64,000 nucleotides of DNA from Arcobacter lacus (GTDB lineage Bacteria > Campylobacterota > Campylobacteria > Campylobacterales > Arcobacteraceae), in NCBI RefSeq assembly GCF_003063295.1, contig NZ_MUXF01000019.1, forward strand, positions 181,919 to 245,918. The letters run 5' to 3'. Position 1 is the first letter of the stretch. Each line of letters starts with the position of its first letter. This document shows, one piece after another, positions 45,070 to 47,947 of this stretch. A model generated the notes under the pieces. That model saw only the letters and a list, made by a program, of their open reading frames with translations, was not told where the DNA came from and did not search any database. The position numbers and the translations under genes were made by a program.

Positions 45070-45342
45070 CTAATGATCTTTTTCTTCATGCTCATCTATC
45101 ATAGCTCTAATTTTTTCATACATTATTTCTGCATCTTCATTCGAGATTTTATCTTCTTCAATAAGTTTTAGAATTTGACTTAATTCTTCTAAAAAGGCTT
45201 CTACATCTTTTTTTGCATCAATAATCTCATTTGATTCATTTCCATTTTCAATCTCTTCATTTAATTCAGTTAAAAAAGCTTGAGATTCAGGTAACATCAC
45301 CTCAAAAATTATACTTTCTAATTTTAATTTTATATTATCCAT
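45070..45342 (-). CDS. Small acidic protein, unknown
   Basis: 90 residues, strongly acidic (many Glu/Asp), predicted mostly helical: LKLESIIFEVMLPESQAFLTELNEE and VEAFLEELSQILKLIEEDK. No membrane segment, no Cys. I recognise no family. A clear AAGGG ribosome site precedes its ATG, which supports a real gene. It stands alone between the convergent PhoH gene and the HisI-RibA gene. Confidence 0.7.
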   Translation of the reverse strand: MDNIKLKLESIIFEVMLPESQAFLTELNEEIENGNESNEIIDAKKDVEAFLEELSQILKLIEEDKISNEDAEIMYEKIRAMIDEHEEKDH

Positions 45343-45485: not shown

Positions 45486-46388
45486 TTAAAGTAAATGTCC
45501 CAGTTCATTTTTTTTTGTTTTTAAATAATTTTCGTTAAATTTATTTGTTTTTGTGATTGAAGGAATCCTTTCAACAATCTCTATTCCACTATTTTCAAAA
45601 AAGTTAATTTTTCTTGGATTATTTGTAATAAGTTTCATTTTTTTTAGTCCTAAATCTTTTAAGATATATTCAACTGCACTGTAATCTCTCTCATCTTCTT
45701 TAAAACCTAATTTTAGATTTGATTCAACTGTGTTATACCCTTGGTCTTGAAGATTATAAGCATTTACTTTATTTACTAAACCTATATTTCTTCCTTCTTG
45801 TCTATGGTAAATAACTAAACCACCTTCTTTTGAAATAAGTTCTAATGCTAAATTTAACTGATTGTTGCAATCACATTTTAAACTTCCAATACTATCTCCT
45901 GTCAAACACTCACTATGAACTCTAACAAGTGGTATCTCAATATCTTTAAAATTTTTACTCATAATTGCAAGATGTTCTTGGCAACCATCTTTATAAGCTT
46001 TTATTAAAAATTTTCCATATTTTGAAGGAAGATTCGCAATTTCAGAAGAAATAATTGTTTTTTCATTTTTTTTGTTTAAATATGATCTAAAAAAACAAGA
46101 TTTTGCTCCAGTATGACAAGCTGTTTTGCCAACTTGTTCTACAATTACTAAAAGTGTATCTTCATCACAATCAACTCTTAAATCAATTAGTTTTTGAATA
46201 TGACCACTCTCTTCACCTTTTTTCCAAATTCTATTTTTACTTCTTGAAAAGTAGTGAACAATTTTTGTTTCAATAGTCAAATCAAAAGATTCTTTATTCA
46301 TATAGCCCAACATTAATATTTCATTTGTTCCATATTCTTGGGCAATAACTGGAACTAATCCATTTGATTTTTTAAAATTAATATTCAT
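45486..46388 (-). CDS. Fusion of phosphoribosyl-AMP cyclohydrolase (HisI) and GTP cyclohydrolase II (RibA)
   Basis: 300 residues, two complete enzymes. Residues about 1-108 are HisI: YFSRSKNRIWKKGEESGH, LRVDCDEDTLL (metal Asp/Cys) and GKTACHTGAKSCFFR (metal Cys). It opens the purine ring of phosphoribosyl-AMP in histidine synthesis. Residues about 112-300 are RibA: VRVHSECLTGDSIGSLKCDC (three zinc Cys), HRQEGRNIGLVNKVNAYNLQ, LGFKEDERDY, ITNNPRKINF and a final ELGHLL. It makes the first riboflavin intermediate from GTP. RibA is more often separate or fused to RibB, and HisI separate or fused to HisE; I do not recall this pairing. No frameshift or stop separates the halves. Confidence 0.93.
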   Translation of the reverse strand: MNINFKKSNGLVPVIAQEYGTNEILMLGYMNKESFDLTIETKIVHYFSRSKNRIWKKGEESGHIQKLIDLRVDCDEDTLLVIVEQVGKTACHTGAKSCFFRSYLNKKNEKTIISSEIANLPSKYGKFLIKAYKDGCQEHLAIMSKNFKDIEIPLVRVHSECLTGDSIGSLKCDCNNQLNLALELISKEGGLVIYHRQEGRNIGLVNKVNAYNLQDQGYNTVESNLKLGFKEDERDYSAVEYILKDLGLKKMKLITNNPRKINFFENSGIEIVERIPSITKTNKFNENYLKTKKNELGHLL

Positions 46389-46448: not shown

Positions 46449-46473
46449 TTAAATGCAACTTAGTTGCATTTAA
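46449..46473. promoter_or_regulatory. 25-nt perfect palindrome between hisI-ribA and pyrC
   Basis: Arms TTAAATGCAACT / AGTTGCATTTAA around one central T, in the 127-base divergent gap. Twelve perfectly matched base pairs, and G+C content higher than its surroundings, argue against chance. It lies upstream of the pyrC -10 candidate (TAAAAT, about 46486-46491) and could control either gene. No known operator recognised. Confidence 0.6.
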
Positions 46474-46515: not shown

Positions 46516-47529
46516 ATGGAAAGATTTATTATAAACTCTGCTTTAGATATGCATCTTCATTTAAGAGATGATGAGATGTTAAAACTTGTAGCTCCTAAAA
46601 CATCAAAAGATTTTGCAGGAGCACTTGTAATGCCAAATCTTGTTCCTCCAATTACTACAAAAGAAGCTCTTTTATCATATAAAAAAAGAATAAAAGAAGC
46701 TTGTAAAGATGATGATTTTAATCCTTATCTTACGATATTTTTTCAAGTAGATTATACATATTCATTTTTAGAAGATATAAAAGATGAGATAATTGCAGTA
46801 AAACTCTATCCTTTTGGTGTTACAACAAATTCCCAAACTGGTGTATCTTCAATGGATGTTGAAATTTTAAGACCAACTCTTGAAGCAATGAGTAAATTAG
46901 GCATACCTTTGTGTGTTCATGGAGAAACAAAAGGTTTTGTAATGGATAGAGAAAAAGAGTTTTTACCTATTTATGAATCTTTGGCAATAAATTTTCCAAA
47001 TCTTAAAATAATTATGGAACATATCTCAACTAAAGAAGCTGTATCTTTACTAGATAAATATGAAAACTTATATGCGACAGTTACTATTCATCATCTTCTT
47101 TTAACCCTTGATGATGTTGTTGGTGGAAGATTAAATCCACATTTATTTTGTAAACCAATAGTTAAAAGATATGAAGATAGAGATGCTTTATTAAAAGTTG
47201 TATTAGAAACTCATCCTAAAATAATGTTTGGTTCAGATTCTGCACCACATCCAAAAAATAATAAAGAAGCAGCAGATGGTGCAGCAGGTATTTTTTCTTC
47301 AGCAATAGCACTGCAAGTTTTAACAGAATTATTTGAAAAGCATAAAAAATTAGATAATCTAAATAATTTTGTAAGTTTAAATGCACAAAGAATTTATAAT
47401 TTAATGCCTATAAAAAAAGAAGTTAACTTAATCAAAAAAGATTTTATAGTTCCAGAGATTTATAGTAATGAAACTGAACAAGTAGTTCCAATGTTTGCTG
47501 GTAAAACTTTACTTTGGAGTATTGAATAA
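46516..47529 (+). CDS. pyrC: Dihydroorotase
   Basis: 337 residues of the short (type II, E. coli-like) dihydroorotase, closing carbamoyl-aspartate to dihydroorotate in pyrimidine synthesis. Seen: metal histidines in LDMHLHLRDDEM, GALVMPNLVPPIT, the carbamylated lysine in AVKLYPFGVTTNSQTG (near 95), VHGET, IMEHISTKEAV, TIHHLLLTLDD, and the catalytic Asp in MFGSDSAPHP. AAAAAAGGAATTTG is the ribosome site. It diverges from the HisI-RibA fusion. Confidence 0.95.
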   Translation: MERFIINSALDMHLHLRDDEMLKLVAPKTSKDFAGALVMPNLVPPITTKEALLSYKKRIKEACKDDDFNPYLTIFFQVDYTYSFLEDIKDEIIAVKLYPFGVTTNSQTGVSSMDVEILRPTLEAMSKLGIPLCVHGETKGFVMDREKEFLPIYESLAINFPNLKIIMEHISTKEAVSLLDKYENLYATVTIHHLLLTLDDVVGGRLNPHLFCKPIVKRYEDRDALLKVVLETHPKIMFGSDSAPHPKNNKEAADGAAGIFSSAIALQVLTELFEKHKKLDNLNNFVSLNAQRIYNLMPIKKEVNLIKKDFIVPEIYSNETEQVVPMFAGKTLLWSIE

Positions 47530-47560: not shown

Positions 47561-47947
47561 ATGATAAAAAACCCTAAAGATATTTTAGAACAATGGATGC
47601 AATCGGTTAATAATGGTAATGTTGAAAAACTTCTTAGTTTATACGATAAAGATGCTGTTTTAATTCCAACATTTTCAAATAGATTACTAAATACACCTGA
47701 TAAGTTAAAAAATTATTTTGAAAAACTTGGTAGTCGAGAAGAGCTTAGTATTGCCTTGCATGAAAAAACTCTTATTATACAAAACCTGCAAAATAGTATT
47801 TCTATTTTAAGTGGTATTTACAATTGGCGTTTTGCAGTTGATGGTGAATTATTAAATTTTGAAGCTAGATTTAGTTATGTAATAGACCTTTCAAAACCAA
47901 ATCCAATTTTACATCATCATTCATCACAAATTCCACGTACATTATAA
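47561..47947 (+). CDS. SnoaL/CaMKII-association-like (NTF2-fold) protein
   Basis: 128 residues. ILEQWMQSVNNGNVEKLLSLYDKDAVLIPTFS is the opening helix pair of the NTF2-like alpha-beta cone, followed by strands (GIYNWRFAVDGELLNFEARFSYVI) and a final HHHSSQIP typical of the CaMKII-association/DUF4440 group. Small cytosolic pocket protein, ligand unknown. AAAGGAAAAAC before the ATG. It follows pyrC by 31 bases and may be cotranscribed. The HD gene downstream has its own promoter. Confidence 0.78.
   Translation: MIKNPKDILEQWMQSVNNGNVEKLLSLYDKDAVLIPTFSNRLLNTPDKLKNYFEKLGSREELSIALHEKTLIIQNLQNSISILSGIYNWRFAVDGELLNFEARFSYVIDLSKPNPILHHHSSQIPRTL

Follow-up and report, generated by a model that had tools for sequence, protein, structure and literature searches.

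Within a 64,000-nucleotide stretch of the Arcobacter lacus genome (contig NZ_MUXF01000019.1, positions 181,919 to 245,918; referred to here as the window), a single gene encodes a predicted protein that joins phosphoribosyl-AMP cyclohydrolase (HisI), an enzyme of histidine synthesis, to GTP cyclohydrolase II (RibA), an enzyme of riboflavin synthesis. The locus raises the question of why two enzymes from unrelated pathways should be made as one chain. We analyzed the domains of the protein, the other copies of its halves in the genome, the promoter region and the occurrence of the fusion in relatives. The features of the locus are listed in Table 1.

Table 1. Features of the hisI-ribA locus (positions are those of the window; aa, amino-acid residues).
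Feature	Position	Strand	Remarks
hisI-ribA fusion gene	45486..46388	-	300 aa; ATG at 46388, stop at 45486, no internal stops
HisI (PRA-CH) half, about aa 1-104	46077..46388	-	Metal residues D73, C74, D75, D77, C91, H92 and C98
Linker, about aa 105-112	46053..46076	-	Short and variable; unconstrained (dN/dS about 0.9); low pLDDT
RibA (GTP cyclohydrolase II) half, about aa 113-300	45489..46052	-	Zinc ligands C161, C172 and C174
Palindrome TTAAATGCAACTTAGTTGCATTTAA, candidate Zur box	46449..46473		Between divergent genes; 60 bp to hisI-ribA start, 42 bp to pyrC2 start
pyrC2, second dihydroorotase	46516..47529	+	72% identical to the genome's other pyrC; metal-ligand motifs present
NTF2/SnoaL-like protein	47561..47947	+	Recurs in the cluster of relatives
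90-aa protein, downstream of hisI-ribA	45070..45342	-	Recurs in the cluster of relatives

The PRA-CH domain is complete (residues 26-100, covering positions 1-74 of 74 in the Pfam model with 115.8 bits) and is followed by GTP_cyclohydro2 (residues 118-276, positions 6-165 of 165, 194.8 bits). In NCBIfam the HisI half passes PRK00051 (HisI) with 152.2 bits against a cut-off of 126, and the RibA half passes TIGR00505 (ribA) with 237.9 bits against a cut-off of 205.85. The seven metal residues of the HisI half and the three zinc-ligand cysteines of the RibA half are invariant across 16 aligned fusions, and the zinc-site pattern C-x10-C-x-C is intact. Pfam, NCBIfam and the alignment confirm the original prediction of one uninterrupted frame with full HisI and RibA domains and all metal ligands; its coordinates were also correct, the strand, which it did not give, being the minus strand. 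Among solved structures, the HisI half is closest to HisI 1zps and HisIE 6j22 and the RibA half to RibA 4rl4 and 2bz0. Both halves are predicted to be catalytically active. Alignment to the stand-alone RibA1 places the start of the RibA part near residue 110, so that the joint consists of only a few residues. In a structure predicted from an alignment rich in HisI and poor in RibA sequences, the HisI half is modeled with confidence, the RibA half partly so and the linker with low pLDDT; our conclusions do not draw on this model. The median dN/dS is 0.087 for the HisI half, 0.131 for the RibA half and about 0.9 for the eight-residue linker, values that indicate strong purifying selection on both halves and not on the linker. 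A sequencing frame error, the objection raised with the original prediction, is excluded, as is a chance frame, because 16 of 104 genomes of the family keep both domains in one frame with each half at a dN/dS of about 0.1, compared with about 0.9 for the linker.

The genome also contains a stand-alone ribA beside gidB, with 69% identity to the RibA half, and, elsewhere, hisIE, with 53% identity to the HisI half. A search for separate hisI and ribA genes, as proposed originally, was thus positive, and the fused protein is therefore a second copy. With the other pyrC, the genome holds housekeeping zinc-enzyme paralogues (hisIE, ribA and pyrC) for both halves of the fusion and for the divergent pyrC2. 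An alignment comparison of HisI2 (the second HisI) with HisIE and of RibA2 with RibA1 revealed no loss of a metal ligand that separates the groups; apart from the alignment ends, only a few group-specific residues were found (V12, V44, L184 and K226). Replacement by enzymes made zinc-independent through lost ligands is not seen, the HisI, RibA and PyrC copies all keeping their metal ligands.

The promoter region common to hisI-ribA and pyrC2 contains the palindrome AAATGCAACTTAGTTGCATTT, which is found elsewhere in the genome ahead of the znuA/Fur-family gene, znuCB and TonB receptor genes. The sequence TTAAATGCAACTTAGTTGCATTTAA had no match in 100 shuffles of the window. Its 12-base core, TGCAACNNNGTTGCA, was searched in the 2.2 Mb genome with the reversed core as a control. 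At zero mismatches the core occurs at five sites, compared with none for the control, and these precede the znuA/Fur-family gene, znuCB, a TonB receptor gene (two sites) and hisI-ribA/pyrC2. With up to two mismatches, two sites lie between znuA and the divergent gene for a 124-residue Fur-family regulator, and further sites are located ahead of znuCB, two TonB receptor genes and, downstream of hisIE, a gene for a small Cys-rich protein. Paired but weaker sites stand ahead of an HGSNAT-like gene. Across the 104 family genomes the exact core occurs 260 times (summed from the table of sites) versus once for the control, and it is found in most genera of the family, a few having none. A promoter scan gave sites no more frequently than in shuffles, and its lone terminator-like match was the palindrome at 46449-46473 itself. 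The palindrome behaves like the operator of a regulator tied to zinc uptake, a candidate operator that hisI-ribA has in common with the znu genes.

The small Cys-rich protein encoded downstream of hisIE (L028:4234-4563) is DUF2116-like, and several relatives have a homologue after hisI-ribA. At L026:3273-3741, a TonB receptor gene and a divergent gene for a CsoR-like repressor are separated by paired palindromes; a cation-efflux-like gene follows the repressor gene, placing uptake and efflux back to back.

The Fur-family regulator encoded beside znuA scores below all NCBIfam cut-offs and is only generically Fur-family, so that the link to zinc is drawn from context; from its genomic context we call it Zur-like, and it would sense zinc and bind the palindrome. 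No published Zur box from the Campylobacterota was found for comparison. Such a generic assignment would also suit an operator for a regulator of another metal (iron, manganese or nickel), with the enzymes as back-ups for that stress, and NicO/DUF1007 transporters do occur in some clusters. We regard this as improbable, however, since znuA with its encoded His-rich stretch, znuCB and the set of HisI, RibA, PyrC, QueD, DksA and DUF1826 match described Zur regulons (PMC2770081, PMC6103462).

The full-length fusion is present in 16 of the 104 family genomes, including that of the window, with 73-91% identity to the window copy, and spans six genera (g1, g2, g3, g9, g17 and g19). A palindrome with no more than one mismatch in its core heads the transcription unit in all 16. 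Eight of the fusions are divergent from pyrC2 (the window, G030, G012, G031, G032, G029, G018 and G090; pyrC2 of G031 is recognized in frame only in part), five directly follow znuC-znuB in znuCB or znuABC operons (G067, G084, G063, G058 and G034; in G084 a znuA homologue comes first) and three have the palindrome and other neighbors (G068, G061 and G064). DksA-like, QueD-like, DUF1826 and DUF2116 proteins are recurrent companions of the fusion, and several of these are described Zur-regulon partners (PMC2770081). The search of relatives proposed originally showed recurrence within the family, and all full-length matches among 397 genomes of the phylum were confined to the Arcobacteraceae. In a pattern-based scan of contigs, only three of the best 80 HisI loci were fused, all of them from the Campylobacterota, a depth at which rare fusions elsewhere could escape. 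No fusion was found in phages or viral contigs, and among plasmids it occurred only in a record from A. faecis; a Rhodococcus plasmid match covering 98% of the query proved to be RibBA. Within the databases searched, the fusion is found in no group besides the Arcobacteraceae.

Two distinct groups are evident among the family's HisI sequences: 22 HisI2, with 79-100% identity to the window protein, and HisIE, with at most 66%. HisI2 is fused in 16 genomes and stands alone in six (G006, G002, G085, G091, G099 and G035); the two forms are intermixed in the HisI tree, where well-supported branches require at least two changes. The RibA tree places all 16 fused RibA in one supported group of 20 sequences (99/88), which also contains the unfused RibA2 of G054, G062 and G093, nested among them, and a long-branched sequence from another family (G393). 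The simplest account would be one old fusion within the Arcobacteraceae, after which several lineages repeatedly lost one of the halves. A decayed RibA piece follows HisI2 in G006 (residues 223-295, 40% identity), as does a shorter one in G002 (residues 140-163, 67%); these remnants, at L064:3881-4003 and L065:4267-4338, mark the loss of one half of a fusion. In five of the six genomes with an unfused HisI2, an extra ribA with its own palindrome is located elsewhere, and palindrome-controlled extra ribA genes derive from several RibA lineages; HisI and RibA back-ups therefore recur in the regulon whether fused or not. Many family genomes contain such an extra ribA behind a palindrome (L198-L206, L208-L211 and L214-L216). 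In G091 (L067:1500-4373) the same palindrome precedes an unfused HisI2, after which come genes for an SbtA-like bicarbonate transporter, a PII protein, a DUF1007 protein and a probable NicO transporter; bicarbonate uptake may here offset the loss of zinc carbonic anhydrase.

These arrangements bear on the first of the functions originally suggested, coordination of purine-derived flux, in which the joined ring-opening cyclohydrolases would balance the use of GTP and phosphoribosyl-AMP between riboflavin and histidine independently of zinc. The substrates of both enzymes are indeed purine-derived, and 16 genomes conserve the fusion. However, the genome already has housekeeping hisIE and ribA, which makes the fused protein a second copy; its recurrent neighbors are zinc-uptake and zinc-regulon genes, and a palindrome-controlled ribA sits at a separate locus in five of the six genomes with an unfused HisI2. 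The proposal is not supported and we consider it very unlikely: the palindrome, the znu genes, PyrC2 and the DksA-like, QueD-like and DUF1826 proteins all point to a zinc-starvation regulon instead.

HisI-RibA is, with high probability, a fused pair of back-up isozymes for zinc starvation within a Zur-like regulon. This interpretation draws on features of the sequences themselves, namely intact domains, duplicate housekeeping genes, a common palindrome, linkage to znu genes, purifying selection and an old fusion from which halves were lost later. When zinc is plentiful, the zinc-loaded repressor would occupy the palindrome and prevent expression of hisI-ribA and pyrC2. As zinc falls, it would leave the operator, and the second HisI, RibA and dihydroorotase would be made alongside ZnuABC, sustaining histidine, riboflavin and pyrimidine synthesis while the housekeeping zinc enzymes HisIE, RibA1 and PyrC1 lack metal. 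Because no metal ligand has been lost, the second enzymes could work at low zinc in one of several ways: by being more numerous, by binding more tightly or by using another metal. Membership of a low-zinc regulon probably also explains the fusion of enzymes from two unrelated pathways: the halves would have merged into one gene as members of one regulon, and a single promoter would then give equal co-expression of both.

Whether the joint itself has a function is a separate matter. Co-regulated neighboring back-up genes could have become one frame with no benefit beyond co-expression, a neutral origin that was also suggested originally and is compatible with zinc regulation, disputing only a role for the fusion as such. 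The short, unconstrained linker with its dN/dS of about 0.9, the separate loss of halves in several lineages (with RibA remnants in G006 and G002), which fits a dispensable joint, and the unfused arrangements with which related genomes manage all favor a neutral joint; the persistence of the fused frame in 16 genomes of six genera, under strong selection on both halves, argues against it, and we give it an even chance. It is doubtful that the fusion itself serves zinc economy, with two metal sites on one chain sharing, handing over or replacing zinc (or taking Fe, Mn or Co) and so sustaining two pathways at lower zinc than separate enzymes could.

Zur-linked paralogues of HisI, PyrC, QueD and DksA have been described in beta- and gamma-proteobacteria (PMC2770081), and Zur-linked hisI2 of Pseudomonas protegens, pyrC2 of Pseudomonas and ribA of Vibrio cholerae are known as separate genes (PMC6103462, PMC8248653). 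The Arcobacter locus resembles these systems in having the same enzyme copies behind a Zur operator (here a candidate) and similar DksA, QueD and DUF1826 companions (PMC2770081, PMC6103462, PMC8248653). It differs in that HisI and RibA, separate genes in Pseudomonas and V. cholerae, form one protein, and in contrast to the Zur-linked PyrC of PMC2770081 its PyrC2 has retained the metal-ligand motifs. The Zur-linked HisI described there likewise keeps its zinc ligands, and the authors of that study proposed use of a different metal or just an increased number of copies (PMC2770081). Two familiar fusions are related in architecture. HisIE (PRA-CH and PRA-PH), present in the same genome, also has a second enzyme joined C-terminally to a HisI domain, but it combines two steps of one pathway, whereas HisI-RibA combines two pathways. 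In RibBA (DHBP synthase and GTP cyclohydrolase II), RibA is again the C-terminal half, but RibB, its partner at the N-terminus, belongs to the same pathway, unlike HisI.

The original prediction knew of no description of a HisI-RibA fusion, and we likewise found none in the open-access papers searched, which included few subscription journals; one paper that names both enzymes lists them in separate oomycete proteins. Relative to those papers the union of HisI and RibA in one protein is new; separate Zur-linked HisI, RibA and PyrC paralogues were already known. If the low-zinc interpretation is correct, the reason for a gene fusion would lie in common stress regulation rather than in a common pathway, both enzymes being needed at low zinc, and the Arcobacteraceae would gain a candidate Zur operator and regulon. 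The fused, split and half-lost versions would then constitute a natural set for testing the effect of the fusion.

In A. faecis (Aliarcobacter faecis) the gene set and znuABC are carried on plasmid pAFAEC between genes for a Tn3-family transposase and a recombinase, and this zinc cassette may be mobile. RefSeq annotates only a 189-residue ribA (WP_026806296.1) inside the 300-residue fused frame of this plasmid (L166:9001-9903; NZ_CP053838.1), a label that hides the HisI half and calls for caution in annotation.
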